A DNA stretch of 64,000 nt, taken from assembly GCF_964204645.1 (NCBI RefSeq), contig NC_134030.1, forward strand, positions 20,899,110 to 20,963,109, in the 5' to 3' direction. This document shows, in pieces, positions 1 to 36,762 of this stretch (within the stretch, counting starts at the first letter, position 1; each line of letters opens with the position of its first letter). A model generated the notes under the pieces. It ran no database searches and was not told the DNA's origin. It saw only the letters and a program-made list of their open reading frames with translations. Position numbers and translations under genes: made by a program. The DNA is from Tubulanus polymorphus. Lineage: Eukaryota > Nemertea > Palaeonemertea > Tubulaniformes > Tubulanidae.

Positions 1-3000
1 AATTGATTTAACATCGATAGTGAGGATGGTGTAAAGAAGTGGATTCAGTGACGAGTTGATCGGTAGGAAAAGTACCGCCAACCAAGCCGCCACTTGGTTC
101 GGTATTTCTACTCGCAATACAGCGCAAAACTGAACGATAATTATCGGTAACCAGCAAAATAGATTACACAGATTTATCACTAAACTCCTACGCGCCAGAA
201 TCAGTTCGGTAGGATCAGCTCTACCCGAGCCGGACCTGCTTCCAGATACGAGTCTATACATCTGTGCATACGTCATCATTATTGTAGCAAGTACGACCGA
301 GTTAAACACGGCAAAAATAGCGAATGAGTATTGCCAGGCGTGGACATTGATGGTTAGTAAATTCATAGGTAAACAAACACCGGTTGTGCCGTAAAAGTTA
401 TTTCCGAAATAAGAAGATGACGACAGCGGTAGCATTGAAATGATGCTTAAAATGATCCAACATATACAGCAAATACTGGACACAGAAATCGAAGATATAA
501 TTGGGCTTCCAGAAAATGGGTCCACGATATTCGAGTATCTTTGACGGGTAAGCATGAGCAGAAAGGTCAACGATCCCTCACAAGATAGAGTCACTATAAT
601 CCCAGCGAGTCGACACGATGAACTATCTGTCCAACTTTCAGAATTTAAGAAATAAACACCTTTATAGACGTAATCGGCTCCTGCGATCAAAAACAGATAA
701 ATCGACATCAGAAAATCGCAAGTGGCAATATTAATAATGAGGATATCAGAGGATGTATTACGTGATTCAGAGGATGAAATTCGTAACGCTTGAACGCGAA
801 GTAAAATTACGGTGATGTTTGCGAAAAAGCTGAATGAAGCGATCGCCCAAATGATTGCTCTAAGAACAGTGTTACCCATCAGGTCGGAACAAGATGAAAA
901 TTGGTCGGCTTCCGGGAGACACTGGTCAACATTCGGAACCATGCAACAAAATTTGTACGCGTCAGAAGCCAAAGTACTTAATGATGAAAGACTGTCAAAA
1001 ACGTTTTTTTCTACGGATATGACTTTTGAATTTTTGGTCAGATCTAGACTTTTAAGTTTTGTTAACCCGGAAAATGCGTTTGGTGAAATATAACTGATTC
1101 TGTTATTGCTGACATCTAACGACTCTAAAGCTGATAAACCACTGAACACATTTCCAACGAGTAACGACAAGGAAAGTCCGTGAAGATCGAGATCGCTTAA
1201 TGACTTTAAACCTAGAAAACTGCCTTCTTCTAAATTTCTCAATGGATTTCCAAGAATCAAGAGTATTTTCAACCTATACAAACCACTAAATGTATTCGCG
1301 GACAATGACATTAAGCGGTTATATGTAAGATCTAATGTATGTAGATTACGCAGGTTTGAGAACGAGTTTGGAACAATATAAGATAAATTGTTACGTGAAA
1401 TATTAAGGAGATGTAGATAGAGGTAGGAAGAAAACGTGGACTCATCGAATACAACTCGGTTTTCTGATAAAATCAGAACTCGAGTTGATGCCGAGAACAT
1501 ATCTGTAATTTCTACTAAACCAGCATCATCGCAATAAATGAAATGACCTTGACATTTACAATTATCTGGACACGTGATGTCACAGTAAGACTCGTCATCA
1601 GTGGCATGTTTACAATTAACAACACCATCACAAACTTCAGATTGAGGTATACATCGGTTTTCCTGGCCACATTTGAACATGCCGGGACACGACAAAGTCT
1701 CGCAGTTTCGCTCGTCTTCTGAATTAGGACAATCTGATCGACCATCGCACACCTGTCCCATCGGTATACAGTAAGATGCTGGACATTTCACAGTACCAGC
1801 AGGACATATGAAATCAGTACAACCTTGTATATGTTCGAGCCTTCTACATACCGGGTAACCAATCGGCATCCTTTCTAAAATACATCTATGACGTCTAGAA
1901 TAACAATGAGGAGAATCGAAAGAACATCTTTGTTCATCAGATTCTGTACAAAGGTTTGTGAAATTAATCGTGCAGTAGTTATCATTATTACAGTGAACTG
2001 TAGGATTCACTGTAACATTCGATGTTAAAAGTTCATCTTCTTCGAGGCTTCCGCTACAATCTACAACACCATCCCGATACAATAGAGAACTGATACATTC
2101 ACCGTTGTTACAGAGAAACCCGTTGCAAAGTTGCGGACCGCACGTCCGTTCGTCGGAGCCGTCTTTACAGTTAGCGATTCCATCACATCGGTACGATCTA
2201 TCCACACATTGACCACTAGTACAGCGGAATTGTTGGGGCAAACACAGTGGATGAAAACACGAGTTTTCATCCGAGCCATCCACACAATCCGATTGAAAGT
2301 CGCAGAAACCACTTATAGATGTAACCCGTCCATCCGAACAGTGGAACTGACTTCGTAAGTTTAAACCCGAACAATCGAATTCATCTTCACCGTGTTGACA
2401 GTCGTTTCTGTTATCACATACGCGATGGTCGCTGATACATCTTTGATCGTTACATTTAAACTGCCACGATTTACAACCGCTTATAGAAGCCAACTCTTCA
2501 CCAGTTACATTATGGGAACATAGCACGGAATGAACGTTGTTTGTCTGATTATTCCACGGTTTTATCGACCATTTCAACGACTCGATTAAAGTGATTTCAT
2601 CCCTTGTCAAAACTGGTTCGATCACTCGAAACATTTTCTTAGCATCCATAGTCAGTACAGCACCATATTGGTGTTTAAAACTAAACTCGTCAATTAATGC
2701 TTTTATTTCATTTTCCCTGTGCCTAGTTACAATAGCTATTTCAGCGTGAAGATCACGACACAATTTCGTAGCGCTTAGAATATCCAAACCTCGATTGTTG
2801 ATCCAATCTGTGAACATCTGACAACATTTACCTTCGACATTTTGCCAACCTTTTTCACAGGTCGAGTTGTTGGTTGTATCGGGATTTTGAATACTTTTAT
2901 TTCCAGTGAGAAATACGATATTGTTATGAGTATCAGTTGTTTCTGTGATGCTCGTTGTATTTGTCGAATTATCCATGCGTTCTGAATCGACGACAATTCT

Positions 3001-6000
3001 ATCCGATTCACAAATGAAAGTTGTTCGAGTCTCCTCGATTTGACACGGGAATCGAACCCAGTTCGCTGATCCTCGTGGATTATTCAGTATCATCGCGGTA
3101 CACGGCATATTGACGTCATTTATCGGTTGTTTTCGTAGAGGAGATATCAATCCTTGAATAACTTCTGGTATGGTTTCGTTTATCATAGCAGGTTTAAACC
3201 ACTCTGTGTAGCTCAATGGTTTTCCATCAGTCCACGTGTAGAAACCATCATTGTCATTCAATGGCTGCAAAAACGGGTTTTAAGCATTTTTCTACTTTAA
3301 TTATTGACATTGTGTTTAGACTCGAATATTTTCAGTGCATATTTGACATCTTTTTTCGAAATTCAGCTTAAAGAATGAATATGCTTACAAAAATTGTCAA
3401 TTTTCGACCATCATTATATTTATTGTACTTTTTATGAATGAAGTTTTATTTATAATTTATATCTAGAATAAAGAATATTTGCCTTCATCAAATTTTACGA
3501 TTTACATGAATTGGGAGTCTAGTGATTCGAGGATAATCTAACTTTCTTATCTCATTTTGTCGATTGGAAATTACCTTGAATCTAAGCCCGAGCATCATTA
3601 TAAGCGCCTCCTGGGTATATCCCTTTCTAAGCAGTTTCGTGGCGAATAATCTTTTGACAGAAATCATTTCATCTTGTGAGTTGATACTGAGAAGATGTCC
3701 TCCGTATTTCTGTTGACAATACATTTCAGCGTTCTCCCAATTCAGACGTTCATCTCTGATGTATTTGACGCAGGAAATTCCCGAATCTAGAAATCCTGAT
3801 TTACAGCTGATTTTATCAAACTGTTTTATTGGTAACGCCTTTTCTAAATTGTATTGTATTTGAAATGTGGGAACGCGACCATTTATCTCAATATACAAAT
3901 CATTGTCCCATAAACTATAAAATACATTTCCACGTTTAGCAATAGTTCCACATATATCAGTTTGATGTTCGGTTCCGCTTCCTGAAATAGCTAATCCATT
4001 ATCGTAAAAGTCAAGTATTTGTTGTTTGAATAGAATTAGGTCTTTGTCAAATCTTGATAATTTATTGCACGTTAAAGACTGTATAAACTTGATTATAAAT
4101 CTGTAATATTGAATTCGATTATTTTCTATCGGGTTTTCAAAGCGATAATAAGAAGATTTCGAAAAATATCCCGCCGATCCCGGATAGTTCGGTGATTGTA
4201 CGATTCCACATTCATCCCTATCCGGGAAATATGAATGCCCGAATTGGGATTGTGTAGGTTTTTTTACTCCTTGACATTTACGACGTAGTTTAACTATTAA
4301 TTCATCATTCCAGAATTGATATTTGTGGAACAATTTCAAAGCGTTAAATACGAAACTGATATTGAGAAACTGATTTGATAAACTCATTTGCCTGTCACAC
4401 TTTCTTCTCGTGTATCTCGCAGGAAAACACGCATCAATTTGATATTCATATTCTGATAATATATAAATGTTTTCTAAAGGAAGGCGCCGGTTTTCAGGTG
4501 TAATCACGAGACAGTGTGACGTCATGTTGATCTGATTTTCTCCTTCCCGTAAAACATACCCGTAACAATCAGCAGGACTGAATCTGAGATACCCAGAGTT
4601 AGGCACATCACTATAAGCGTATCCTACTACAGTAACCAGTCCTCCTGATGTAATCAGACTAACGACGTTACGACCATATTTATAACCAGGACAATACGGA
4701 CCATAGCGTCTAGCTGTAAAATTACCACCATCATATATATAAAATCCAGCTCTCTCGCACGTCTCTGATAAAACTGTTAGTTTTAATCCATCCTCATAGA
4801 TATCAACTTTCCGTTTAAATTCTAATGTATTTATACGATACGATAATATTTTCTTCTTTGACGCCGGGAAGAATTCGCTTGGAATCAAACTTGCACTGGA
4901 GCCAAATATCTACAAAATATGAATATTGATCATTAATCGAATAATTTACATTGTTTTGTTAGATAAATTGTTTTACATTTTTCCTTAAATCATACACTTT
5001 ATGTATTTATCCGACAAAATAATTGACGAATTTTCCTTGTTCTTAATTACACTTTTGAATACATTAAAGGGATGTTCCGTATCTTATATTTTCGCACAAG
5101 AAATTTAAAGGTTGTACAAAAAAGTTATATTTTAAAGAATTATTTAAACATCAGTACTTGCACCAATATTCATGTTTAACAAAAATTCATATTTCTCATT
5201 TTAACAATATCAATTTAATTTTGTAAAACAATAGCTGAGAAATAATTTTACTACATCTGTGGACTTGCACGCCTTCTATTGAAAGAGAAATCTTTAAACT
5301 CATTTTTATTTCTATGGTTCATTCTTACGTATTATTTAGCTGAGGCTGAGTAGTTATTTTACTCACCCTTCGTTTGTGAACTTGTACGTCTCCTGTGGAT
5401 AAAGATTTCACTTCAAATTCTATCCTTACATTCGATTGTGAAACACCTGGTCTTATTAAAACGCACAGTATGACGAGAAAGCCGTCAGATTTAACACTCA
5501 GTGATTCCAGGTAGTTGTAACCGAGTAAAATATCAGTTCCTACAACGCGTAACCCTTCTAGTTTATATACACCGATGACGTCACCGGATGTGCTGAGATC
5601 ACGTGTCCAGTTGAAGACGACGTACTGTAACACCTGCACTGTGATAGACCAGCAGTGTAAGTGTTTTGATCGAGTTATTACGTGTAAACTGTTGTCATCG
5701 GGAATGAGCACTCCAGACTCGTTATTAGAGATTTGAATTAACGGATTAGAGACGTTCCAATCAGATATTCTATACACCTGAACTGATAGTTGTGATTTAA
5801 AGGACAGTAGATGTGTATCGATAATGGCTTTGTAAGTTTTTGTGTAAAATGATGATGGTGGATGTCCGGTTTGTTCTGGTATAACAGCTATAGGTTCACT
5901 GGTGATGTTCCATCCGTCGTAAATTTGAACAGTTGTCGTTGAATGAGCGCCAGGAGATAATCTGAAATCTATTTGTGTAAACGTCAAATTCATAGCGAAA

Positions 6001-6557
6001 CCATCCGGGATCTCGATCCATTCCAAATATAATATACATCGTTTTAAATATATTGCGAATTTGTATCCTGTCGAAGTTGGTAATATGTTTATTCTTTGTT
6101 TGTATATTATGCAGTTATGAATAAACTTCAAATTGTTTCGTTCATAACGATATATGATATAAACCCGACTACCCCGCGCACCATCGACGTTACTTCTAAA
6201 CATCAACGAGATCGAATCGTTACGGCGGATTTCATGTTTTCCTTCACCGCAGAATCTGTTATCGGACTCACCGACGAGAAGGTAGTTATCACTACAGAAT
6301 ATCGACGGCTCGATGTCGTAGTATAGTTTGATGTTGAAAGTTCCCGGTAAAGAGCTGTTGACGAACCAACGACATTCAACACCGCGCGTAAACGACGGGT
6401 AATTCAGTGAAACGATGTAACCGGACGTAGAATCGACGGGGTACCAAGTGTTGTTACAAGGCGAACTGACCGTCACAGAGTCAGACAGATCAGCGTGTGC
6501 GATGTTAACTCGCCAGACGATCAGCGACGATATAAACAGCGCTCTCAGTCGATCCAT
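1..6557 (-). CDS. GRL101-like CUB/lectin/LDLa/LRR seven-helix receptor, copy A (3' end cut by window)
   Basis: Three exons on the minus strand: 6557-5367 (397 codons), 4909-3575 (445 codons) and 3264 to the window edge (1,088 codons). Borders are AGG|GTGAGT, TTTTGTAG|ATA, AAG|GTAATT and TTTTTGCAG|CCA, all phase 0. I read exon 3 codon by codon and found no stop. Compared with copy B it lacks only the last 12 codons, so the truncation is the window edge. Exon 1 has a signal peptide (MDRLRALFI...IAHA) and a CUB domain. Exon 2 has CUB-like regions and the first half of a C-type lectin domain. Exon 3 completes that lectin domain, then carries a second lectin-like domain, LDLa repeats, LRRs, hinge and seven helices. 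The family resembles Lymnaea GRL101 and relaxin-receptor-type LGRs and is inferred to be a plasma-membrane receptor; ligand unknown. Exon 3 begins CCA TTG where B and C have CCA ATG. Confidence 0.9.
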
Positions 6558-6904
6558 ACCGAACAACAATCTCTACTGAATAATCAAAACTTGCATAGCT
6601 TTACGAAATCGAAACAAATTACAGTTCGTCCAATTAGAAAATTCGCTGAGAATTCTTTGAAATTGATATTTTTCGTCGTTGCTGCAATTATTTTGAAACC
6701 GATTCTAATGAAGCGTTCTGATTTTTTCCAATTAATAACAAATATTCATATATCATATATTTCTAACTACTACAAGTTCACGTGTTTATAGAAGTGAAAG
6801 ATCATTTTAAACATATGCGTGATGAAGTGCGGAAGATCTGTTTTGAAAGTGCACTGAAAAGATGTCTGATACCACATGTTTATGTACATTTTTTAATAAA
6901 AAAA
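6558..6904. other. 5' flank of copy A
   Basis: About 350 bases directly upstream of the copy A start. Nearly the same sequence precedes copy B (16697-17050), so the flank was duplicated with the gene. Copy C shares only the first bases and part of the distal portion, and copy D has an unrelated flank. It probably holds the promoter and 5' UTR, but I see no clear TATA box or other element that I would name. Confidence 0.4.
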
Positions 6905-7400
6905 AAATGTCTCAGTTGAAGACCTGAACACATGTGAAGTGTGGACGATCAGTTTTTGAAAGTGTGCTGATAAAATGTCTAATATCTGGTGTTTGTAGTT
7001 CATTTTCAATTAAAAATGTCTCAGGTGAAGCACTGAACACATGTGAAGTGTGGACGATCAGTTTTTGAAAGTGTGCTGATAAAATGTCTAATGTCTGGTG
7101 TTTGTAGTTCATTTTCAATTAAAAATGTCTCAGGTGAAGCACTGGACACATGTGAAGTGTGGACGATCAGTTTTTGAAAGTGTGCTGATAAAATGTCTAA
7201 TATCTGGTGTTTGTAGTTCATTTTCAATTAAAAATGTCTCAGGTGAAGCACTGGACACATGTGAAGTGTGGACGATCAGTTTTTGAAAGTGTGCTGATAA
7301 AATGTCTAATATCTGGTGTTTGTAGTTCATTTTCAATTAAAAATGTTTCAGGTGAAGCACTGAACACATGTTAAGTGTGGATGATCAGTTTTTGAAATTG
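6905..7400. repeat. 109-bp satellite array upstream of copy A
   Basis: About 4.4 tandem units of 109 bp. Each contains gaacacatgtgaagtgtgga, a stretch of the type tttttgaaagtgtgctgata, and tgtttgtagttcatttt. The unit gives short overlapping open frames on both strands, which are by-products of the repeat. The same satellite lies upstream of copies B and C and at 39.6 kb. Confidence 0.9.
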
Positions 7401-7961
7401 CAAATAAAATCTCATGCATTTCCACAGTATTCGATAATAGTGAAATCACTTATAGAAGAACATCTGAACACACCTTATACACCAAGGCTCTTACATACTC
7501 ATGACGTCACGAGTTTTGGCAATTACAGATTTCTAGTACAAAATATGTATAGATGGCAATAAATGAAAATAGACCGCCCCAGCCGGAACGGAAGCATCGA
7601 TATCATTTACTTGGTCGTTACGTTGAATCTTTTCAAATAACTTCTTAAAACCTAGTCGGATTGATTCCCAATCGTTTTAGCAATAACATGCAAACATTCG
7701 GAGACCTTTTCTGCGAAGTCGAGGTTGACTGCTGGTAACCGGTCGAGGTCACCCTTCGCGCGGATAACAGCTGACGTTCACGAAATAATAACGTGACTTT
7801 GAGATAATGGATGCATTAGGAACATACACTAATGCACGGTGGAATTAATCGAGAAATTATCTGTTCCCTGTTAGTAACTCAGTAATATCATTCATTGATA
7901 CACGATATTCTAATGCAGTAGAACATTATGTCGAATAATATTCTAACATATTTTGACGAAC
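7401..7961. other. intergenic, no gene seen
   Basis: Spacer between the satellite and the TA hairpin. Its first part is matched near 17350-17640 upstream of copy B. I see no coding exon, RNA gene or element with clear ends here. Confidence 0.4.
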
Positions 7962-8200
<239 letters not shown>

Positions 8201-10049: not shown

Positions 10050-13000
10050 TCAGCGAGTTTTTAAAATCCGTTTATTTTTAGCCCGAATTGATTTAACATC
10101 GATAGTGAGGATGGTGTAAAGAAGTGGATTCAGTGACGAGTTGATCGGTAGGAAAAGTACCGCCAACCAAGCCGCCACTTGGTTCGGCATTTCTACTCGG
10201 AATACAGCGCAAAACTGAACGATAATTATCGGTAACCAGCAACATAAATTACACAGATTTATCACTAAACTCCTACGTGCAAGAATCAATTCGGTAGGAT
10301 CAGCTCTACCCGAGCCGGACCTGCTTCCAGATACGAGTCTATACATCTGTGCATACGTCATCACTATTGTAGCAAGTACGACCGAGTTAAACACGGCAAA
10401 AATAGCGAATGAGTATTGCCAGGCGTGGACATTGATGGTCAGTAAATTCATAGGTAAACAAACACCGGTTGTGCCGTAAAAGTTATTACCGAAATAAGAA
10501 GATGACGATAGCGGTAGCATTGAAATGATGCTTAAAATGATCCAACATATGCAACAAATACTGGACACAGAAATCGAAGATATAATTGGGCTTCCAGAAA
10601 ATGGGTCCACGATATTCGAGTATCTTTGACGGGTAAGCATTAGCAGAAAGGTCAACGATCCCTCGCAAGAAAGAGTCACTATAATCCCAGCGAGTCGACA
10701 CGATGAACTATCCGTCCAACTTTCAGAATTTAAGAAGTAAACTCCTTTATAGACGTAATCGGCTCCTGCGATCAAAAACAGATAAATCGACATCAGAAAA
10801 TCGCAAGTGGCAATATTAATAATGAGGATATCAGAGGATATGTTACGTGATTCAGAGGATGAAATGCGTAACGCTTGAACGCGAAGTAAAATGACAATAA
10901 TGTTCGCGAAAAAGCTGAATGAAGCGATCGCCCAAATGATTGCTCTAAGAACAGTGTTACCCATCAGGTCGGAACAAGATGAAAATTGGTCGGCTTTCGG
11001 GAGACACTGGTCAACATTCGGAACCATGCAACAAAATTTGTACGCGTCAGAAGCCAAAGTTCTTAATAATGTAAGACTGTAAAAAACGTTTTTTTCTACG
11101 GATATGACTTTTGAATTTTTGGTTAAATCCAGACTTTTAAGTTTTGTTAATCCGGCAAATGCGTTTGGTGAAATATAACTGATTCTGTTATTGCTGATAT
11201 TTAACGACTCTAAAGCGGATAAACCACTGAACACATTTCCACCGAGTATTGACAAGGAAAGTCCGTGGAGATCGAGATCGCTTAATGACTTTAAACCTTG
11301 AAAACTGCCTTCTTCTAAATATCTAACTGGATTCCCAAAAATAAAGAGAATTTCCAAACTGTTCAAACCGGCGAATGTATTCGCGGACAATGATACTAAG
11401 CGGTTATATGTAAGATCTAATGTATGTAGATTATGCAGGTTTGAGAACGAGTTTGGAACAATATAAGACAAATTGTTACGTGAAATATTAAGAAGGTGTA
11501 GATAGAGGTAAGAAGAAAACGTGGACTCATTGAATACAACTCGGTTTTCTGATAAAATCAGAACTCGAGTTGATGCCGAGAAAAGATCAGTCATTTCTAC
11601 TAAACCAGCATCAACGCAATCAATTAAATGACCTCGACATTTACAATATTTTGGACACGTGACGTCACAGTAGGACTCGTCATCAGTGGTGTGTTTACAA
11701 TTTACAACACCATCGCAAACCTCAGATTGAGGTATACATCGGTTTTCCTGGCCACATTTGAACATGCCGGGACACGTCAAAGTCTCGCAGTTTCGCTCAT
11801 CTTCTGAATTAGGACAATCTGATCGACCATCGCACACCCGTCCCATCGGTATACAGTAAGATGCTGGACATTTTACAGTACCAGCTGGACATATGAAATA
11901 GGAGCAACCTTGTATATGTTCGAGCCTTCTACATACCGGGTAACCAATCGGCATCCTTTCTAAAATGCATCTATGACGTCTAGAATAACAATGAGGAGAA
12001 TCGAAAGAACATCTTTGTTCATCAGATTCTGTGCAGAAATTTGTAAAGTTAGTCGTACAGTAGTTATCATTATTACAGTGAACTGTAGGATTCACCGTAA
12101 CATTCGATGTTAAAAGTTCATCTTCTTCGAGGCTTCCGCTACAATCTACAACACCATCCCGATACAATAGAGAACTAATACATTCACCGCTGTTACATAG
12201 AAACCCGTTGCAAAGTTGCGGAGCACATCCCCACTCATCGGAGCCGTCCTTACAGCTAACGATTCCATCACATCGGTACGATCTATCCACACATTGTCCA
12301 CTAGTACAACGGTATTGTTGGTGCGAACATAGTGGATGAAAACACGAGTTTTCATCCGAGCCATCGACACAATCCAGTTCAAAGTCACACAAACCACTTA
12401 TTGATATAACCTTACCATCTAAACAGTGGAACTGACTCTGTAATTTTGAACCCGAACAATCGAGTTCATCTTCACCGCGTTGACAATCGTTTCTCGTATC
12501 ACATACGCGATGGTCGCTGATACATCTTTGATCGTCACATTCAAATTGCCACGATTTACAACCGCTTACAGAAGCAAAATCTTCACCAGTTACATTATAG
12601 GAACATAGCACGGAATGAACGTTGTTTGTCTGATTATTCCACGGTTTTATTGACCATCTCAACGACTCGATAAAAGTGATTTCATCCCGTGTCAAAACTG
12701 GTTCGATCACTCGAAACATTTTCTTAGCATCCATTGTCAGTACAGCACCATATTGGTGTTTAAAACTGAACTCGTCAATTAATGCTTTTATTTCATTTTC
12801 CCTGTGCCTAGTTACAATACCTATTTCAGCGTGAAGGTCACGACACAATTTCGTAGCGCTAAGAATATCTAAATCTCGATTGTTGTTCCAATCTGTGAAC
12901 AATTGACAACATTTGCCTTCGACATTTTGCCAACCTTTTTCACAGGTCGAGTTGTTGGTTGTATTGGGATTTCGAATACTTTCATTACCAGTGAGAAATA

Positions 13001-16000
13001 CGATATTGTTAAGAGTATCGGTTAGTTCTGTGATGCTCGTTGTATTTGTCGAATTATCCGCGCGTTCTGAATCGATGTCAATTCTATCCGATTCACAAAT
13101 AAAAGTTGTTCGAGTCTCCTCGATTTGACACGGGAATCGAACCCAGTTCGCTGATCCTCGTGGATTATTCAGTATCATCGCCGTACACGGCATATTGACG
13201 TCATTTATCGGTTGTTTTCGTAGAGGAGATATCAATCCTTGAATAACTTCTGGTATCGTTTCGTTTAAGATAGCAGGTTTAAACCACTCTGTGTAGCTCA
13301 ATGGTTTCCCATCAGTCCACGTGTAGAGACCATCATTGTCATTCATTGGCTGCAAAAACGGTTTTTAAGCATTTTCTACTTTAACCATTGTTTAGACTCG
13401 AATATTTTCAGTGCATATTTCACATCTTTTTCAAAATTCTAAACACTATACTTTTTATGAATTAAGTTTTATCTTTAATTGACATCTAGAATAAAGAATA
13501 TTAACCCTTTTAGTGCTGACTAATTAATACCCTATGGTGCTGGAGAAAATTTGCAAATTTTTAAAAATTCCACCTAAGTGCTTTGCATAACGAGAATACC
13601 ACTATAGTGCGTCTACACCGCAGCGCGGTATATCGTTAGTTACTAGTATTTCACTATGTTTAACAGGTGCTGCCATTTTTCAAGAGATAATTACTAATTA
13701 CGTTAATACACTGCACTGCGGTGTAGACGTTATTTTGTCGAGTGAAGGTTACCTTGTATTTTAGCCCGATCATCATTATAAGCGCCTCCTGGGTATATCC
13801 CTTTCTTAGCAGTTTCGTGGCGAATAATCTTTTGACAGAAATCATTTCATCTTGTGAGTTGATACTGAGAAGATGTCCTCCGTATTTCTGTTGACAGTAC
13901 ATTTCAGCGTTCTCCCAATTCAGACGTTCATCTCTGATGTATTTGACGCAGGAAATTCCCGAATCTAGAAATCCTGATTTACAGCCGATTTCATCAAACT
14001 GTTTTATTGGTAACGACTTTTCTAAATTGTATTGTATTTCAAATGTGGGAATGCGTTCCTTTATCTCAAAATACAAATCATTGTCCCATAAACTATAAAA
14101 TACACTTCCACGTTTAGCCATAGTTCCACATATTTTAGTTAAATGTTCAGTGTCGCTTCCTGAAATAACTACTCCATTATCGTAAAGGTCATGTATCTGT
14201 TGCTTGAATAGAATTGGGTCTTTGTCTGATCTAGATAATTTACTGCACGGTAAAGTCTGAATAAATTTGATTATAAATCTGTAATATTGAATTCGATCAT
14301 TTTCAATCGGATTTTCGAAGTTATAATAAGATGATTTCGAAGTATATCCCGCAAAGCCCGGATAGTTCGGTGATTGTACGATTCCACATTCATCCCTATC
14401 CGGCAAATATGAAGAACCGGGAAATTGTGTAGGGTTTTTTACTCCTTGACATTTACGACGTAGTTTAACTATTAATTCATCATTCCAGAATTGATATTTG
14501 TAGAACAATTTCAAAGTGTTTAATACAAAACTGTTATTGAGAAACTGATTTGATAAACTCATTTGCCTGTCACACTTTCTTCTCGAGTATCGCGCTGGAA
14601 AACATGCGTCAATTTGATACTCATGTTCTGATAATATATAAATGTTTTCTAAAGGAAGGCGCCGGTTTTCAGGTGTAATCACCAGACAGTGTGACGTCAT
14701 GTTGATCTGATTTTCTCCTTCCCGTAAAACATACCCGTAACAATCAGCAGGACTGAATCTAAGATACCCAGAGTTAGGTACATCACTATAAGCGTACCCT
14801 ACTACAGTAACCGGTCCTCCTGATGTAATCAGACTGACGACGTTACGACCGTACCACAGACCATCAGGACAATACGGACCATAGCTTCTAGCTGTAAAAT
14901 TACCACCATCATATATATAAAATCCAGCTCTCTCGCACGTCTCTGATAAAACGGTTAGTTTTAATCCATCCTCATAGATATCAACTTTCCGCTTGAATTC
15001 TAATGTATTTATACGATACGATAATATTGTCTTCTTTGACGCCGGGAATAGTTTGCTCGGAATCAAACTTGCACCGGAGCCAAATATCTACAAAATATGA
15101 ATATTGATCATTAATCGAATAATTTACATTGTTTTGTTAGATACATTGTTTTACATTATTCTTAAATCATACACTTTATGTATTTATCCGACAAAATAAT
15201 TGACGAATTTTCCTTGTTCTTAACTACACTTTTAAATGCATTAAAGGGATGTTCCGTATCTTATACTTTCGCACAAGAAATTTAAAGGTTTTACAAAAAA
15301 GTTATTTTTTCAAAGCTTTATTTAAACATCAGTACTTTCACTAGAATTCATGTCTAATGAAAATTAATATTTCTCAATTAAACAATTCTACATAATTTTG
15401 TAAAGCAATAGCTGAGAAATGATTTTACTACATCTGTGGAGCTGCACGTCTTCTATTGAAAGAAAAATTCAAATTTAGCTGAACCTGAGTAGTTATTTTA
15501 CTCACCCTTAGTTTGTGAACTTGTACGTCTCCTGTGGATAAAGATTTCACTTCAAATTCTATCCTTACATTCGATTGTAAAACACCTGGTCTTATTAAAA
15601 CGCACAGTATGACGAGAAAGCCGTCAGATTTAACACTCAGTGATTCCAGGTAGTTGTAACCGAGTAAAATATCAGTTCCTACAACGCGTAACCCTTCTAG
15701 TTTATATACACCAATGACGTCACCGGATGTGGTGAGGTCACGTGTCCAGTTGAAGACGACGTACTGTAACACCTGCACTGTGATAGACCAGCAGTGTAAG
15801 TGTTTTGATCGAGTTGTTACGTGTAAACTGTTGTCATCAGGAATGAGCACTCCAGACTCGTTATTAGAGATTTGAATTGACGGATTAGAGACGTTCCAAT
15901 CAGATATTCTATACACCTGAACTGATAGTTGTGATTTAAAGGACAATTGATGTGTATCAATAATGGCTTTGTTAGTTTTAGTATAAAATGATGAAGGGGG

Positions 16001-16696
16001 ATGTCCGGTTTGTTCTGGTATAACAGCTATAGGTTCACTGGTGTTCCATCCGTCGTAAATTTGAACAGTTATCACTGAATCAGCACCAGGAGATGATCTG
16101 AAATCGATCTGTGTAAAAGTCAAATTCATCGCAAAACCGTCCGGGATCCCGATCCATTCCAAACATAATTGACAATGTTTTAAAAATATTGCGAATTTGT
16201 ATCCTGACAATGTTTGTAAGTTGTTAAATATGAAATTGTATTTTCCGCAGTTGTGAATGAATTTCAAATCGTTTCGTTCAAAACGATATATGATATAAAC
16301 CCGACTACCCCGCGCACCATCGACGTTACTTCTAAGCATCAACGAGATCGAATTTTTACGGCGGATTTCATGTTTTCCTTCACCGCAGAATCTGTTATCG
16401 GACTCACCGACGGAAAGGTAGTTATCACTACAGAATATCGACGGCTCGATGTCGTAGTAAAGTTTGATGTTGAAAGTTCCTGACGGTAAAGAGCTGTTGA
16501 CGAACCAACGACATTCAACACCGCGCGTTAACGACGGGAATTTCGGTGAAACGATGTAACCGGACGTAGAATCGAGTGGGTACCAAGTGTTGTTACAAGA
16601 GGAACTGACCGTCACAGAGTCAGACAGATCAGCGTGTGCGATGTTAACTCGCCAGACGATCAGCGACGCTATAAACAGCGCTCTCAGTCGATCCAT
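10050..16696 (-). CDS. GRL101-like CUB/lectin/LDLa/LRR seven-helix receptor, copy B (complete)
   Basis: Exons 16696-15506, 15087-13753 and 13349-10050; all junctions phase 0; 397+445+1,099 = 1,941 residues. The chosen ATG (MDRLRAL) begins a clear signal peptide; the in-frame codon four triplets upstream is TTG. Protein: signal peptide 1-24, CUB about 36-145, a variable beta-rich region to 397, CUB-like then CUB about 630-753, C-type lectin domain about 765-930 (intron 2 inside it). Exon 3 residues: second lectin-like domain about 136-250, LDLa about 264-403 (the fourth degenerate, Tyr for a Cys) and 485-561, LRRs about 565-760, hinge with CC and CSDLMGN, helices about 802-1080. Helix 3 ends RQRY instead of DRY; helix 6 has CCWLP; helix 7 has NPLLY. 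Short basic tail. Inferred to sit in the plasma membrane and couple to G proteins; ligand unknown. Confidence 0.93.
13505..13730. mobile_element. TTAA-type MITE in intron 2 of copy B, right end missing
   Basis: Starts TTAA|CCCTTTTAGTGC at 13501 and matches the element in copy C, but ends after the ctgcggtgtagacg motif. The right terminal repeat and adjacent intron sequence kept in A and C are missing, so a deletion followed the insertion. The TTAA site and CCC start resemble piggyBac-type MITEs. Confidence 0.7.
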
Positions 16697-17054
16697 ACCG
16701 AACAACAATCTCTACTGAATAATCAAAACTTGCATAGCTTTACGAAATCGACACAAATTACAGTTCGTCCAATTAGAAAATTCGCTGAGAATTCTTTGAA
16801 ATTGATATATTTCGTCGTTGCTGCAATTATTTTGAAACCGATTCTAATGAAGCGTTCTGATTTTTTTAATGCTCAACTTCCAATTTATAACAGATATTCA
16901 TATATCATATATTTCGTGTAGCTAACTACTACAAGTTCACGTGTTTATAGAAGTGAAAGATCATTTTAAACATATGCGTGGTGAAGTGCGGAAGATCTGT
17001 TTTGAAAGTTCACTGAAAAGATTTCTGATATCACATGTTTATGTACATTTTTTA
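16697..17054. other. 5' flank of copy B
   Basis: Near-identical to the flank of copy A, with a small insertion near 16867-16920. Probably promoter and 5' UTR; no specific element recognised. Confidence 0.4.
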
Positions 17055-17345
17055 ATAAAAAAAATGTCTCAGTTGAAGCACTGAACACATGTGAAGTGTG
17101 GACGATCAATTTTTGAAAGTGTGTGCTGATAATATGTCTAATGTCTGGTGCTTGTAGTTCATTTTAAATTAAAATTGTCTCAGGTGAAGCACTGAACACA
17201 TGTGAAGTGTGGACGATCAGTTTTTGAAAGTGTGCTGATGAAATGTCTAATATCTAATGTTTGTAGTTCATTTTGAATTAAAAATGTCTCAGTTGAAGCA
17301 CTGAACACATTTGAAGTGTGGACGATCAGTTTCTGAAACTGCAAA
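17055..17345. repeat. 109-bp satellite, about 2.6 units, upstream of copy B
   Basis: Same 109-bp unit as at 6905-7400 with fewer copies and more divergence between units (for example an extra gt in tgtgtgctgat). Confidence 0.85.
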
Positions 17346-19584
17346 TAAAATCTCGTGCATTTCCACAGTATTTAATAATAGTGATTAACTTATAGAAGAA
17401 CATCTGAACACACCTTATACACCAAGGCTCTTCGTTGAAAAATACAGCAACAGGTGCCACCATACTCATGACGTCATGAGTTGTGACAATTACATATTCT
17501 TAGTACAAAATATGTATAGATGGCAATAACTAAAAATAGACCGCCCCAGCCGGAACGGAAGCATCGATATCATTTTCTTGGTCGTTACGTTGAATCTTTT
17601 CAAATAACTTCTTAAAACCTAGTAATAATACAAAATAATACAGAATAATACAAAGAATTCTTTTTATATATATAGTACCAGGCATACTGGATGATCTAAG
17701 CTACAGTTCACCCCCAAACTTCAAATACGAGGCCCTGTGGTATTCACACGCAGAGAAACGTTATAGCAAGTACCCTGCGAATTTCTGCTTGAACACGATG
17801 TGCGTAACTAGATCGAAAATCCTATAACCAGCAACCAATGTCGGGAACGTGTTCTTTAGGTTTTAAACTTATACATTTCACTGAATTCTTGGTTCTGGAC
17901 ATGTAACACGCCCAACGGCTACATACAATCCGAATCGCCTACTTTTTGCTCTCAACAGTTGTTTTAAACGATTACTAAGTGATGCATTATTCAGACAGAG
18001 AACATGTATGGAATGAGTATGAATTATGTTTTTTTAGTTATCATTTCTATTAGCTCGCAGTATCCGGATATATCATATTGCTGGTACGAATATCTATGGT
18101 CAAAAATGTTACAAGTATAATGCATCATATAAGATGAGGTTATTCATAATTAAAAACGAGCTGATAGCAAATTAGAAATATTCAACGATCACAATTGAAA
18201 ACTTTCATTTTTATCTTATAAAGTTGAATATAGCGAGTTTTATTATCTTTTGCTAATTTTTTCTTATCTTATGAAGGATAGAAAGAATATCGTGCGGCTC
18301 GAATCGTAAATTACCGCGGTGAACTTTTTGGTGCGAAGACAGTAGGTAACGAATGTAATGATATAATATGGTGGCTGATTCGGGCCAAGTTAAGAAAAAA
18401 GAATTCCGCGCAATGTATATATCGCTTCGTTTTTTCGCCGCGCAGGAAAACGAACCTGTGTTTCTCGTTTCTGCGCCCGCCGAAATAAACTTCGTTTAGC
18501 TGCGTCCGGTTGACATCCACGCGTTGACATTCGATGATAGAAGATCTATAAACACGTGTACGGGTATAAACGGGCTGTTGGTGTTCGGTTTTTGAGAATC
18601 GCTAGCCAGGGCGAAATTCGGTTTTCGTAGCTAGTCGACTAGTGGTCGAAACTAATAACCGAATGCGCTTAATTTCCGAACTATTTCCGGAATATAGTTC
18701 CGACTAACTGAAATTCGGTTTCATTTAGTTCGACTATAGTCGACTAACTCAGATATCAAACCGAAGTTGGCCCAGGCTGGGGATTTTGTATGTACTAAAT
18801 TACTGAATGTCTCCGTGAGCTAAGTATTGTCTTTATGTGTGGCCTGGACGATTCTACTGTTTTGATCTTAAAATAGGAATTGACCCTATTATTGATTTGA
18901 TTGGTAAATTCCTCGTCCCTTACAGACCCACCACACCTGCCGGGAGCGAAACAGGGGGTTTAATATTGAAATTGGAAGTACAGATATAGTTGTGTGATCG
19001 GCGGTCGAGTTTACAACAGTTTGTTTAAATCGAAGTACATTATTGGGAAATTTGGTTCCGGGTTATCCAAACAATATTCCATTGGTTAGCCTACCAGTTA
19101 AAGCAGTAAACACGTGCATGTTTTTAATCGATTCTTGTGTATGCAGCCGGGAGGTCGTTCAGATATTCGATTTCGGAGGAGTTTGAACGTATGATTGTGG
19201 TAAAAAATATAGTTCGTGTTGAACGAATATTCGCGGTCAAGTAAGCATGTGTATAAGATCGATAACGGAATCTGTGACTCAGGAAAGTAGCTGAATTTAA
19301 AAAAAAACTTCAATCGGAAAAAACAGAAAGACCAACCACGCAGTGCGGTAGATTTGAAACCTGATTTCCTAAGCCACGAGAGAATGATAAATCTCCGACC
19401 TAGGCACAAAACTAAATATTAGTTTGATTCGTCGAAAAAACTATCGTAAGTTCATACTTGAAACTGAGATAAGGTATGATGATTTTAACAGTGTCCAACT
19501 GTTTCCAAAAATAGTTTTCCATGAATATAGCGGCTGAAGGCGCTCCTAGCGTGTATCCAAAGTTTCTATCGACTGATAAATGTT
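17346..19584. other. duplicated intergenic spacer between copies B and C
   Basis: Copy of the 7401-10049 spacer but lacking the long TA tract and the left arm of the hairpin. Over about 800 bp next to the gene (18780-19584 against 9240-10049) I count roughly a dozen base differences. No separate gene is supported here. Confidence 0.6.
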
Positions 19585-22500
19585 TCAGCGAGTTTTTAAA
19601 ATCCGTTTATTTTTAGCCCGAATTGATTTAACATCGATAGTGAGGATGGTGTAAAGAAGTGGATTCAGTGACGAGTTGATCGGTAGGAAAAGTACCGCCA
19701 ACCAAGCCGCCACTTGGTTCGGTATATCTACTCGGAATACAGCGCAAAACTGAACGATAATTATCGGTAACCAGCAACATAAATTACACAGATTTATCAC
19801 TAAACTCCTACGTGCCAGAATCAATTCGGTTGGATCAGCTCTACCCGAGCCGGACCTGCTTCCAGATACGAATCTATACATCTGTGCATACGTCATCACT
19901 ATTGTAGCAAGTACGACCGAGTTAAACACGGCAAATATAGCGAATGAATATTGCCAGGCGTGGACATTGATTGTTAGTAAATTCATAGGTAGACAAACAC
20001 CAGTTGTGCCGTAAAAGTTATTACCGAAATAAGAAGATGACGATAGTGGTAGCATTGAAATGATGCTTAAAATGATCCAACATATGCAACAAATACTGGA
20101 CACAGAAATCGAAGATATAATTGGGCTTCCAGAAAATGGGTCCACGATATTCGAGTATCTTTGACGGGTAAGCATTAGCAGAAAGGTCAAAGATCCCTCG
20201 CACGAAAGAGTTACTATAATCCCAGCGAGTCGACACGATGAACTATCCGTCCAAACTTCAGAATTTAAGAAGTAAACTCCTTTATAGACGTAATCGGCTC
20301 CAGCGATCAAAAACAAATAAATCGACATCAGAAAATCGCAAGTGGCAATATTAATAATGAGGATATCAGAGGATGTATTACGTGATACAGAGGATGAAAT
20401 TCGAAGTGCTTGAACGCGAATTAAAATGACAATTATGTTCGCAACAAAGCTGAATGAAGCGATCGCCCAAATGATTGCTCTAAGAACAGTGTTACCCATC
20501 AGGTCGGAACAAGAAGAAAATTGGTCGGTTTTCGGGAGACACTGGTCAACATTCGGAATCATGCAACAAAATTTGTACGCGTCAGAAGCTAAAGTACTTA
20601 ATAATGTAAGACTGTAAAAAACGTTTTTTTCTACGGATATGACTTTTGAATTTGTGGTTAGATCCAGACTTTTAAGTTTTGTTAATCCGGCAAATGCGTT
20701 TGGTGAAATATAACTGATTCTGTTATTGCTGACATCTAACGACTCTAAAGCGGATAAACCACTGAACACATTTCCACCAAGTAACGACAAGAAAAGTCCG
20801 TGAAGATCGAGATCGCTTAATGACTTTAAACCTAGAAAACTGCCTTCTTCTAAATATCTAACTGGATTCCCAAAAATAAAGAGAATTTCCAAACTGTTCA
20901 AACCGGCGAATGTATTCGCGGACAATGACATTAAGCGGTTATATGTAAGATCTAATGTGTGTAGATTAACCAGGTTTGAGAACGAGTTTGGAACAATATA
21001 AGACAAATTGTTACGTGAAATATTAAGGAAATGTAAATAGAGGTAAGAAGAAAATGTGGACTCATTGAATACAACTCGGTTTCCTGATAATATCAGAACA
21101 CGAGTTGATGCCGAGAAAAGATCAGTAATTTCTATTAAACCAGCATCATCGCAATCAATTAAATGACCTCGACATTTACAATATTTTGGACACGTGACGT
21201 CACAGTAGGACTCGTCATCAGTGGTGTGTTTACAATTTACAACACCATCGCAAACCTCAGATTGAGGTATACATCGGTTTTCCTGGCCACATTTGAACAT
21301 GCCGGGACACGTCAAAGTCTCGCAGTTTCGCTCATCTTCTGAATTAGGACAATCTGATCGACCATCGCACACTTGTCCCATCGGTATACAGTAAGATGCT
21401 GGACATTTTACAGTGCCAGCTGGACATATGAAATAAGAGCAACCTTGTATATGTTCGAGCCTTCTACATACCGGGTAACCAATCGGCATCCTTTCTAAAA
21501 TGCATCTATGACGTCTAGAATAACAATGAGGAGAATCGAAAGAACATCTTTGTTCATCAGATTCTGTGCAGAGATTTGTAAAGTTAGTCGTACAGTAGTT
21601 ATCATTATTACAGTGAACTGTAGGATTCACCGTAACATTCGATATTAAAAGTTCATCTTCTTCGAGGCTTCCGCTACAATCTACAACACCATCCCGATAC
21701 AATAGAGAACTGATACATTCACCATTGTTACACAGAAACCCGTTGCATATTTGCGGACCGCACTCCCGCTCGTCGGAGCCGTCCTTACAGTTAACGATTC
21801 CATCACATCGGTACGATCTATCCACACATTGACCACTAGTACAACGGTATTGTTGCGGCGAACACAGTGGGTGAAAACACGATTTCTCATCCGAGCCATC
21901 GACACAATCCTCTTCAAAGTCACACAAACCACTTATTGATATAACCTTACCATCTAAACAGTGGAACTGACTCTGTAATTTTGAACCCGAACAATCGAGT
22001 TCATCTTCACCGCGTTGACAGTCGTTTCTCGTGTCACATACGCGATGGTCGCTGATACATCTTTGATCGTTACATTTAAATTGCCATGATTTACAACCGC
22101 TTATAGAAGCCAACTCTTCACCAGTTACATTATAGGAACATAGCACGGAATGAACGTTGTTTGTCTGATTATTCCACGGTTTTATTGACCATCTCAACGA
22201 CTCGATAAAAGTGATTTCATCCCGTGTCAAAACTGGTTCGATCACTCGAAACATTTTCTTAGCATCCATTGTCAGTATAGCGCCATATTGGTGTTTAAAA
22301 CTGAACTCGTCAATTAATGCTTTTATTTCATTTTCCCTGTGCCTAGTTACAATACCTATTTCAGCGTGAAGGTCACGACACAATTTCGTAGCGCTAAGAA
22401 TATCTAAATCTCGATTGTTGTTCCAATCTGTGAACAATTGACAACATTTACCTTCGACATTTTGCCAACCTTTTTCACAGGTCGAGTTGTTGGTTGTATT

Positions 22501-25500
22501 GGGATTTTGAATACTTTCATTACCAGTGAGAAATACGATATCGTTATGAGTATCGGTTATTTCTATGATGCTCGTTGTATTTGTCGAATTATCCGCGCGT
22601 TCTGAATCGATATCAATCCTATCCGATTCACAAATAAAAGTTGTTCGAGTCTCCTCGATTTGACACGGGAATCGAACCCAGTTCGCTGATCCTCGTGGAT
22701 TATTCAGTATCATCGCCGTACACGGCATATTGACGTCATTTATCGGTTGTTTTCGTAGAGGAGATATCAATCCTTGAATAACTTCTGGTATCGTTTCGTT
22801 TATCATAGCAGGTTTAAACCACTCTGTGTAGCTCAATGGTTTCCCATCAGTCCACGTGTAGAGACCATCATTGTCATTCATTGGCTGCAAAAACGGTTTT
22901 TAAGCATTTTCTACTTTAACCATTGTTTAGACTCGAATATTTTCAGTGCATATTTCACATGTTTTTCAAAATTCAGCTTAAAGAATGAGTATGCTTATAA
23001 AAATCGTCAATTTTCGACCATCATTATATTCACTATACTTTTTATGAATTAAGTTTTATCTTTAATTGACATCTAGAATAAAGAATATTAACCCTTTTAG
23101 TGCTGACTAATTAATACCCTATAGTGCTGGAGAAAATTTGAAAATTTTTAAAAATTCCACCTAAGTGCTTTGCATAACGAGAATACCACTATAGTGCGTC
23201 TACACCGCAGCGCGGTATATCGTTAGTTATTAGTATTTCACTATGTTTAACAGGTGCTGCTATTTTTCAAGAGATAATTACTAATTACGTTAATACACTG
23301 CACTGCGGTGTAGACGCACTAAAAGGGTAAACATTCATCAAATTTTACGATTTACATGAATTGGGAGTCTAGTGATTCGAGGAAAATCTAACTTTCTTAT
23401 CTCATTTAGTCGAGTGTAAGTTACCTTGAATTTTAGCCCGATCATCATTATAAGCGCCTCCTGGGTATATCCCTTTCTAAGCAGTTTCGTGGCGAATAAT
23501 CTTTTGACAGAAATCATTTCATCTTGTGAGTTGATACTGAGAAGATGTCCTCCGTATTTCTGTTGACAGTACATTTCAGCGTTCTCCCAATTCAGACGAT
23601 CATCTCTGATGTATTTGACGCAGGAAATTCCCGAATCTAGAAATCCTGATTTACAGCCGATTTTATCAAACTGTTTTATTGGTAACGACTTTTCTAAATT
23701 GTATTGTATTTGAAATGTGGGAACGCGATGCTTTATCTCGAAATACAATTCATTGTCCCATAAACTATAAAATACACTTCCACGTTTAGCAATAGTTCCG
23801 CATATTTTAGTTTGATGTTCAGTGTCGCTTCCTGAAATAACTACTCCATTATCGTAAAGGTCACGTATCTGTTGTTTGAATAGAATTGGGTCTCTGTCTG
23901 ATACAGATAATTTACTGCACGGTAAAGTCTGAATAAATTTGATTATAAATCTGTAATATTGAATTCGATCATTTTCAATCGGATTTTCAAAACTATAATA
24001 AGATGATTTCGAAGTATATCCCGCCGATCCGGGATAGTTCGGTGATTGTACGATTCCACATTCATCCCTATCCGGGAAATATGAAATACCGCGAAATTGT
24101 GTAGGTTTTTTCGCTCCTTGACATTTACGACGTAGTTTAACTATCAATCTATCATTCCAGAATTGATATTTGTTGAACAATTTCAAAGTGTTTAATACAA
24201 GACTGTTATTGAGCAACTGATTTGATAAACTCATTTGCCTGTCACAAGTTCTCGAGTATCGCGCAGGAAAACATGCGTCAATTTTATATTCATATTCTGA
24301 TAATATATAAATATTTTGTAAAGGAAGGCGCCGGTTTTCAGGTGTAATCACCAGACAGTGTGACGTCATGTTGATCTGATTTTCTCCTTCCCGTAAAACA
24401 TACCCGTAACAATCAGCAGGACTGAATCTAAGATACCCAGAGTTTGGTACATCACTATAAGCGTATCCTACTACAGTAACCGGTCCTCCTGATGTAATCA
24501 GACTGACGACGTGACGACCGTATTCATAACCAGGACAATACGGACCATAGCGTCTAGCTGTAAAATTACCACCACCATATATATAAAATCCAGCTCTCTC
24601 GCACGTCTCTGATAAAACTGTTAGTTTCAATCCATCCTCATAGATATCAACTTTCCGTTTAAATTCTAATGTATTTATGCCATACGTTAATGCTGTCATC
24701 TTTGATGTCGGGAATAGTTTGCTCGGAATCAAACTTGCACTGGAGCCAAATATCTACAAAATATGAATATTGATCATTAATCGAATAATTTACATTGTTT
24801 TGTTAGATAAATTGTTTTACATTTTTCCTTAAATCATACACTTTATGTATTTATCCGACAAAATAATTGACGAATTTTCCTTGTTCTTAATTACACTTTT
24901 GAATACATTAAAGGGATGTTCCGTATCTTATATTTTCGCACAAGAAATTTAAAGGTTGTACAAAAAAGTTATATTTTAAAGAATTATTTAAACATCAGTT
25001 CTTGCACCAATATTCATGTTTAACAAAAATTCATATTTCTCATTTTAACAATATCAATTTAATTTTGTAAAACAAAAGCTGAGAAATAATTTTACTACAT
25101 CTGTGGACTTGCACGCCTTCTATTGAAAGAGAAATCTTTAAACTCATTTTTATTTCTATGGTCCATTTTTACGTATAATTTAGCTGAAGCTGAGTAGTTA
25201 TTTTACTTACCCTTCGTTTGTGAACTTGTACGTCTCCTGTGGATAAAGATTTCACTTCAAATTCTATCCTTACATTCGATTGTAAAACACCTGGTCTTAT
25301 TAAAACGCACAGTATGACGAGAAAACCGTCAGATTTAACACTCAGTGATTCCAGGTAGTTGTAACCGAGTAAAATATCAGTTCCTACAACGCGTAACCCT
25401 TCTAGTTTGTATACACCGATGACGTCACCGGATGTGCTGAGATCACGTGTCCAGTTGAAGACGATGTTCTGTAACACCTGCACTGTGATAGACCAGCAGT

Positions 25501-26398
25501 GTAAGTGTTTTGATCGAGTTATTATGTGTAAACTGTTGTCATCGGGGATGAGCACTCCAGACTCGTTATTAGAGATTTTATTTAACGGATAAGAGACGTT
25601 CCAATCAGATATTCTATACACCTGAACTGATAGTTGTGATTTAAAGGACAATTGATGTGTATCAATAATGGCTTTGCTAGTTTTAGTATAAAATGATGAA
25701 GGTGGATGTCCGGTTTGTTCTGGTATAACAGCTGTAGGTTCACTGGTGTTCCATCCGTCGTAAATTTGAACAGTTGTCACTGAATGAGCGCCAGGAGATA
25801 ATCTGAAATCTATTTGTGTAAACGTCAAATTCATAGCAAAACCATCCGGGATCCCGATCCATTCCAAATACAATTTACATCGCTTTAAAGATATTACGAA
25901 TTTGTATCCTATCGATGTTTGTAATTTGTTTATACTGTACAAAGCTTTCATGCAGTTATGAATCAATTTCACATCGTTTCGTTCTAAACGATATATGATA
26001 TAAACCCGACTACCCCGTCCACCATCGACGTTACTTCTAAACATCAACGAGATCGAATCGTTACGGCGGATTTCATGTTTTCCTTCACCGCAAAATCTGT
26101 TATCGGACTCACCGACGAGAAGGTAGTTAACACTACAGAATATCGACGGCTCGATGTCGTAGTATAGTTCGATGTTGAAAGTTCCCGGTAAAGAGCTGTT
26201 GACGAACCAACGACATTCAACACCGCGCGTTAACGACGGGTAATTCGGTGAAACGATGTAACCGGACGTAGAATCGACGGGGTACCAAGTGTTGTTACAA
26301 GACGAACTGACCGTCACAGAGTCAGACAGATCAGCGTGTGCGATGTTAACTCGCCAGACGATCAGCGACGCTATAAACAGCGCTCTCAGTCGATCCAT
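19585..26398 (-). CDS. GRL101-like CUB/lectin/LDLa/LRR seven-helix receptor, copy C (complete)
   Basis: Exons 26398-25211 (396 codons), 24753-23425 (443) and 22884-19585 (1,099 plus stop), total 1,938 residues; junctions phase 0 as in A and B, donor 1 being AGG|GTAAGT. An extra in-frame ATG 12 bases upstream (26410, MLFGMDRL) is a TTG in A and B, so I keep the conserved start. Domain order as in copy B: signal peptide, CUB, CUB-like/CUB, split C-type lectin, second lectin-like domain, six LDLa, LRRs, hinge, seven helices with RQRY, CCWLP and NPLLY. I count about 49 amino-acid differences from copy B across the 1,099 residues of exon 3, frequent around the first to fourth LDLa repeats and sparser in the helices. 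Intron 2 contains a MITE. Inferred cell-surface receptor. Confidence 0.93.
23092..23327. mobile_element. TTAA-type MITE in intron 2 of copy C
   Basis: 236 bp with terminal inverted repeats CCCTTTTAGTGC and GCACTAAAAGGG. Left flank TTAA, right flank TAAA (one base off). Internal palindromes of the tacaccgc/gcggtgta type. Copy A has no insertion at the equivalent site near 3475. Confidence 0.8.
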
Positions 26399-36006: not shown

Positions 36007-36762
36007 GAGATCGATGTGTCATACCATACAGTAAGGCCAGGATGTCACACACAGACCAATTCATACAGAATAAAATAAACAAGTTATTTCAAATGACTCC
36101 ACTTCAACCCAGACTCGAGGATCTTTGTCGAGTGGTAGTCAAACCGACCGGGCTAGGCCACACGATATGGGCTCCAAAGTCATGATGAAGCAGATATCAG
36201 AAGAGCTCTTTCCTCAGCCATGGAGGCAATGAAGTTGCAGACCAGCTTAGAGGCAAAAGTGAAATTAACATGCAATTTTTGATAGAAAAATTAAACCACT
36301 ATTTACAGTCGAAGGCCTGTATCACCTACCCAATCACCAACTCTCATAATTCCCCAAATTTCTTAGAACTTCGATTTCAAATTTGCAATTCCACATTAGC
36401 TTATCCCAAAAAGTCTACGTTTTTTTCGCAGGCGTCAAATAATTTACTAAAATTAATATTCTTGTTTCTCATTGTATTGTGTCCGTTGCTGGGATAGTTG
36501 CACGTTTGCAATATCTCTCCTTACCTTTCCACTAGAGATGGCCAGCGCGCAGATTGGTATTCCCGATTTAGGGGGGTTGCGACCCGATCCCCCCACAGAA
36601 AAAGAGGATTGGGTACAATTCCCCGTGCACAAAAAGGGAATCATGAAATGAAATAGAATAATAAATTGTCGAGGAAAAAAGAATATTTTTGATGTAATCA
36701 TGTAGATTTTGTGATTAAGTGATTTTGTTCTTAGACTGGCAATACGCCTTATAAAAAAAGGG
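36007..36762. other. no gene seen
   Basis: Mixed sequence between the microsatellite and the receptor pseudogene fragment. No exon or repeat with clear borders. Confidence 0.35.

Follow-up and report, generated by a model that had tools for sequence, protein, structure and literature searches.

A very large tandem family of LGR-type receptor genes with predicted CUB and C-type-lectin-like modules in the nemertean Tubulanus polymorphus

LGRs are reported to be found in animals only (PMC4079206). Among them, GRL101 combines LDLa modules with LRRs, occurs as a single gene in each of the ambulacrarian species studied and has been put forward as a second IGF receptor (PMC8286064). Signalling by relaxin receptors depends on the LDLa module, which is not believed to take part in hormone binding and may serve as a tethered ligand; RXFP1 has one such module (PMC4561518). 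Lineage-specific expansion of related receptors is described for Ciona, with 14 LDLRR-GPCRs carrying LDLa modules and placed near the LGRs (PMC2396169), and in snails, hyperdiverse genes include some for LRR- or LDLa-bearing GPCRs (PMC10875847). In the snail Biomphalaria sudanica, the SudRes2 region, which has been linked to Schistosoma mansoni resistance, contains a cluster of GRL101-like genes within 440 kb, ten of them complete with LRR, LDL and CTL domains and two of them incomplete, and six more are annotated outside of it. The validated variant of this region, however, sits in a neighbouring zinc-RING gene and not in a GRL101 gene (PMC12297450), so that SudRes2 serves as a precedent by location only.

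The window analysed here, a stretch of 64,000 bases of Tubulanus polymorphus DNA (C6:20899110-20963109), contains a section of a very large tandem receptor family that has expanded in this lineage. With SudRes2, this family shares clustered paralogous rhodopsin-class LGRs, the combination of LRRs and LDLa modules with an N-terminal C-type-lectin domain and a suspected recognition role; compared by description, however, one CTL is reported for the SudRes2 genes and the main text of the source does not use the term 'cub domain' (PMC12297450), whereas the present family has at least 236-238 sites, and its receptors carry CUB modules and a second CTLD. Multiple LDLa modules, LRRs and an LGR-like 7TM domain are likewise shared with Lymnaea GRL101 and the type C2 LGRs, which, with twelve LDLa modules in the snail, are described without a CUB or lectin domain in the sections concerned ('c-type' is absent from PMC8286064; PMC8286064, PMC4079206). 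The same holds for the Ciona receptors, whose description mentions neither CUB nor CTLD in the part of the source used and which comprise far fewer copies (PMC2396169). RXFP1 (PDB 7tmw), the best match among solved GPCRs, has LRRs, hinge and 7TM in common with the receptors described here and differs at the DRY position, which reads EKY in RXFP1 and QRY in the present family. To our knowledge, RXFP1 has neither a CUB module nor a CTLD, and lectin-like and CUB ectodomains are rare on GPCRs in general. Since GPCR genes combining LRR, LDLa and CTL are described from Biomphalaria (PMC12297450), the idea of a categorically new kind of receptor was rejected. An LDLa- and LRR-bearing GPCR with one C-type lectin domain is already known, and the present family is best seen as a variant of that kind with unusual scale and a variable arm; among the open-licence papers listed, no CUB modules on such receptors, no second CTLD and no comparable expansion were found.

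An earlier note on this DNA, made from its letters alone, had described three tandem copies, a fourth inverted one 34 kb away and a relic at 36.8 kb, all of which tblastn searches recovered (Table 1). Copies A-C and the inverted copy D are three-exon genes, and spliced copy C encodes 1,938 aa, with a CUB module followed by further CUB-like modules, two CTLDs, LDLa repeats, LRRs, an LGR hinge and a rhodopsin-class 7TM domain. Beyond the window, 25 loci taken from 7TM matches of a TM1-2 probe, one of them being copy D, all had their three exons arranged alike, in the order 1-2-3 on one strand. Together with copies A-C these make up 28 genes, and in-frame junctions fit every one of them. As the splice script sought in-frame GT and AG only near the expected ends, phase 0 is partly built into this result; independent of the frame restriction, the second donor lies at the expected base in 28/28 genes and the first in 25/28, with acceptors at most 15 bases from their expected place. 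First donors mostly read GTRAGT, second donors mostly GTAAYT, and acceptors end in AG. All exons are open in 25 of the 28 genes (copy A being judged within the window, and L020 and L021 being identical), the broken ones being L017, in exon 1, and L023 and L024, in exon 3. Exon 3 of copy A stays open past the window edge in the genome (G000:C6:20899077-20902385). An 81-bp intron 2 without an in-frame stop leaves L031 open from exon 2 into exon 3; its retention would insert 27 residues inside CTLD1. Five of the best 150 TM matches lie within open frames of at least 1,400 aa. Pairing of exon-1 sites with a downstream TM site (71/98) is ambiguous, since a TM site at the same distance upstream is also present in 46/98 because the genes stand in tandem; hence, directly read loci were used for the gene model instead. 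The junction between exons 2 and 3 is supported from within a domain, as the Lectin_C score rises from 17.7 bits for exon 2 alone to 31.3 bits for the joined exons (copy C only; cut-off 22.6). As far as models read from DNA can tell, the recognition-type modules, the LGR hinge and the 7TM domain belong to one gene, as the earlier note had proposed, and its view that two lectin-like domains plus CUB regions go beyond the LDLa and LRR plan of GRL101 holds as well.

Table 1 Features of the receptor genes in the window (positions within the 64,000 bases)
Feature	Position	Strand	Evidence
Copy A exon 3, truncated at window start (CTLD1 second half, CTLD2, LDLa, LRR, hinge, 7TM)	1..3264	-	tblastn, 92% to copy C
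Copy A exon 2 (CUB-like modules, CTLD1 first half)	3575..4909	-	tblastn and splice-site script
Copy A exon 1 (signal-peptide-like start, CUB1, two further modules)	5367..6557	-	
Copy B exon 3	10050..13349	-	95.5% to copy C
Copy B exon 2	13753..15087	-	
Copy B exon 1	15506..16696	-	
Copy C exon 3, including stop codon	19585..22884	-	Pfam; PDB match relaxin receptor 1, E 1.8e-77
Copy C 7TM, rhodopsin class	19630..20487	-	Pfam 7tm_1, 2e-19
Copy C LRR region	20587..21198	-	Pfam LRR_8, 9e-25
Copy C LDLa region	21199..22095	-	Pfam Ldl_recept_a, 2.4e-37, 6 stretches
Copy C CTLD2-like domain	22099..22503	-	Profile vs PDB
Copy C CTLD1 second half, opens exon 3	22624..22884	-	Lectin_C match crosses junction
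Copy C exon 2	23425..24753	-	Gene model; AlphaFold model
Copy C CTLD1 first half	23425..23655	-	Lectin_C in 26/26 members at E up to 0.5, best 7.2e-4
Copy C last CUB of exon 2, residues 213-358	23680..24117	-	Predicted fold
Copy C exon 1, ATG at 26398	25211..26398	-	Gene model; Pfam CUB
Copy C CUB1, exon 1 residues 34-140	25979..26299	-	Pfam CUB, 24.1 bits (cut-off 21.4)
Exon 1 relic, residues about 174-300	36692..37052	-	Two tblastn pieces, 59% and 82%
Copy D exon 1, inverted	60920..62125	+	75.7% to copy C; locus L029
Copy D exon 2	62448..63761	+	49.8% to copy C; locus L029
Copy D exon 3, first 102 bases, truncated at window end	63899..64000	+	Remainder in L029

Other features of the window include a partial major-facilitator transporter gene between the receptor arrays (38147-39235, minus strand; MFS_1 8.8e-29) and exons of the nucleolar GTPase NOG1 (48921-50020, plus strand, perhaps to 52344; NOG1 1.7e-19), with repeat-rich stretches nearby at about 47.3-48.3 and 50.4-51.8 kb; the NOG1 gene and the introns are in keeping with a eukaryotic origin. 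Upstream, the A-C array ends in long runs of the dinucleotide TA at 26.7-28.8 kb.

We regard the domain architecture of the family as well established, with three of its modules being candidate CUB domains. Domain assignment made use of five alignments, comprising 25 of 27 rows (A1), 26 of 28 (A2, with L010 and L021 omitted), 18 of 26 (A3), 18 of 24 (A4) and 16 of 24 (A5). The 1,180-residue spliced query proved insensitive, missing even the CUB and Lectin_C matches given by single exons, and domain-sized pieces were searched for this reason. Pfam CUB matches exon 1 in 20/25 members at E up to 0.5, the score of 19.3 for copy D being below the cut-off, and the CUB1 profile matches cubilin (1.6e-9). 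For the last module of exon 2, a CUB fold is supported by the AlphaFold model (pLDDT 64.4 for the best of five models, the others reaching 49.3, 49.0, 42.6 and 37.4), in which the fold was interpreted only for residues about 213-358; the exon 1 model (alignment A1, pLDDT 33.6) was set aside. The model of the first module of exon 2 aligns only with multi-CUB rows, at high rmsd. Ldl_recept_a (5-6 stretches in copy C), LRR_8 and 7tm_1 are each present in 18/18 members (A3), and the alignment with relaxin receptor 1, the closest solved GPCR, spans LRRs, hinge and 7TM. Several N-terminal LDLa modules, as in type C2, LRRs with an LGR hinge and a rhodopsin-class 7TM domain, the three features of type C LGRs, are all present, and by domain content and the relaxin receptor 1 match the family is assigned to the type C LGRs (GRL101 / relaxin-receptor-like). 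The combination of CTL, LDLa, LRR and 7TM in one clustered protein, as in SudRes2-type GRL101 receptors, is found as well in a comparison of architecture.

The second lectin-like domain is supported as a CTLD by its profile (A4), for which 36 of 42 PDB rows are CTLD proteins, the best at 2.3e-7; these matches cover the first half of the domain, include NKG2-D, CD69 and mannose receptors, and reach about 0.03 for single-domain chains. The Pfam family UL45 (C-type-lectin-like) matches CTLD2 in 8/18 members (best 1.8e-4), copy C not being among them, and no Lectin_C match was found in the CTLD2 of these 18 members. Classical C-type lectins carry EPN or QPD and WND motifs. At the corresponding places, CTLD1 reads QPI and WVR, invariant in the 18 aligned rows as judged by eye, which therefore lack the classical calcium-dependent sugar-binding motifs. 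In the domain search that the earlier note had called for on the spliced proteins, CUB1 and CTLD1 were found by Pfam, CTLD2 by profile and the last CUB of exon 2 by predicted fold, while Pfam and profile sequence searches returned no CUB match for the three other CUB-like modules. Its suggestion that the lectin modules bind glycans is not supported as regards the classical calcium-dependent mode, given the motifs of CTLD1 and the matches of CTLD2 to NKG2-D and CD69 besides mannose receptors; CTLD1 may use a different binding mode.

Family size was estimated in a genome of 267.8 Mb in 77 contigs. Three 74-residue TM1-2 probes, for each of which the best 150 of 339, 337 and 334 first-look candidates were considered, gave in union at least 185 distinct sites on 11 contigs, with the main clusters at C6 17.8-22.1 Mb, C9 2.3-5.1 Mb and C12 3.7-8.5 Mb. 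Among the best 150 of 329 candidates of an 80-residue CTLD1 probe (weakest 6.4e-46), 97 are followed by a listed TM site at 2.3-2.7 kb, the other 53 lacking such a neighbour. With CTLD1 sites counted as extra if no TM site is listed 1.8-3.0 kb on, the family comprises at least 236-238 sites (at least 185 TM plus 53 CTLD1), the lower figure treating each of two possible split genes as a single site, as judged by comparing the 53 CTLD1 sites with those 66/185 TM sites that were near enough. Not all of these sites are intact genes, and some may be assembly duplicates. L020 (G000:C6:19823955-19833954) and L021 (G000:C6:20056254-20066253) are identical over 10,000 bases at a distance of 232,299 bp, which, together with a similar offset in other copy pairs, points to recent segmental duplication or assembly redundancy.

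Variation was quantified in 24 of the 28 genes, omitting the three broken ones and L021. Mean pairwise identity is highest for the hinge (92.3%), the second half of CTLD1 (91.8%), 7TM (88.5%) and CUB1 (87.6%), the latter indicating that variability is not arm-wide. Intermediate values are seen for module 3 (84.6%), LDLa (82.4%), the first half of CTLD1 (77.2%) and LRRs (75.6%), followed by module 4 (71.3%), module 2 (67.0%), CTLD2 (58.9%) and the last CUB (51.5%), while the linkers before the last CUB of exon 2 and between the CTLDs reach 46.8% and 39.0%, respectively. For exons 1-3, dN/dS is 0.59, 0.70 and 0.30 in the subgroup of the window (11 genes, 55 pairs) and 0.52, 0.72 and 0.42 in a second one (5 genes, 10 pairs). 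Exon 3 remains at 0.23-0.42 across five comparisons, which argues that the genes are maintained by selection. Whole-exon dN/dS above 1 was not found in any comparison made; higher values occur in single 40-codon windows and stem from few changes. By this pattern, the core is under purifying selection and the arm is less constrained or diversifying; relaxed constraint would equally yield the exon 2 value of 0.7.

In all of 12 hand-picked pairs, silent sites have diverged unevenly over the length of the gene (simulated p from 0 of 5,000 to 0.029, uncorrected for several tests). For copies C and D, this divergence is 0.03-0.04 over the first 120 codons and rises to about 0.5-0.7 across much of exon 2, whereas copy C and the C9 copy L031 differ by 0.38 and 0.24 in those first 120 codons; L031-L032 has the flattest profile among distant pairs. 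The nearest neighbour also shifts by exon, L027 being closest to L015 in exon 1 and to L018 and L019 in the other two exons. Such pair-specific silent patches suggest gene conversion or unequal exchange, mainly inside C6. The start of exon 3 (window 22624-22884 and equivalents) encodes near-invariant protein with few silent changes even between contigs (C-L030 0.14, C-L031 0.20, L018-L031 0.17, L031-L032 0.30), which might be due to a splicing signal or to conversion between chromosomes.

In terms of function, we infer an immune or a chemosensory role. The reading we favour, and to which we give about an even chance, is that of a very large type C LGR family in which a CUB/CTLD arm on an LDLa-LRR-hinge-7TM core meets diverse outside ligands and most likely recognises non-self, such as microbes and parasites, or other individuals; a recognition role as such, immune or allorecognition, is given the same even weight. 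Here, the arm would bind its ligands via its variable parts, namely the exon-2 linker with the last CUB, CTLD2 and module 2, the most variable parts being the likeliest contact surfaces. Binding would then shift the LDLa-LRR part. Since the core is that of the relaxin receptors, it is conceivable that the arm places or releases the LDLa module upon ligand contact, which in turn would activate the 7TM domain as proposed for those receptors. All members would signal via a similar G-protein output, and tandem duplication, gene conversion and loss would both sustain the repertoire and keep it varied. More tentatively, the family could be a germline recognition system on a hormone-receptor chassis, with several hundred LGR-type GPCRs whose hypervariable CUB/CTLD cassettes are shuffled by gene conversion and serve pathogen sensing or allorecognition through one conserved G-protein output.

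Next in rank after recognition, though rather unlikely, is an expansion of the odorant- or taste-receptor kind, with each member sensing a cue from outside that guides feeding, settlement or mating. It is typical of chemosensation that large GPCR families stand in tandem and vary in their binding parts. Moreover, a GRL101-like receptor of the crown-of-thorns starfish is over-expressed, though not exclusively, in sensory tentacles compared with tube feet (PMC6267866). Against such a role, the variation sits in CUB and CTLD modules fit for large ligands, with 7TM among the conserved parts. Odorant receptors, in contrast, vary in the 7TM domain itself. Less probable still is that the LRRs continue to bind insulin/relaxin-like peptides, with the outer modules tuning or localising the receptor and the expansion reflecting dosage or drift. 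The LRR-hinge-7TM match to relaxin receptor 1 fits this reading, and the core could still be that of a hormone receptor, as relaxin receptors bind, and GRL101 as putative second IGF receptor is proposed to bind, insulin-like peptides (PMC8286064, PMC4561518). Hundreds of copies with a fast arm, however, misfit one hormone, given the single GRL101 per ambulacrarian species (PMC8286064), and the LRRs vary more than 7TM. It is improbable, too, that copy number is inflated, a modest family being multiplied by uncollapsed haplotypes, pseudogenes or assembly redundancy: the identity of L020 and L021, matches at low coordinates on C22 and C32, perhaps small unplaced pieces, frames below 1,000 aa at 26 of the best 150 TM matches and the 3/28 broken genes speak for it, but the other 124 of these 150 lie in open frames of at least 1,000 aa, all compared genes except L020/L021 differ and exon 3 dN/dS indicates genes kept by selection. 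That there are two genes, one for a secreted CUB/CTLD protein (exons 1-2) and one for an LGR (exon 3), is hardly credible despite the signal-peptide-like start of exon 1 (by eye), as CTLD1 is split mid-domain between exon 2 and exon 3, the start of exon 3 has no signal-peptide-like stretch (by eye) and exon order is constant in 28/28 genes.

Returning to the recognition role favoured here, a family of such size would rank with the large invertebrate recognition repertoires and, together with the Biomphalaria resistance region, suggests that more than one animal has put relaxin-receptor-like GPCRs to use in recognition.
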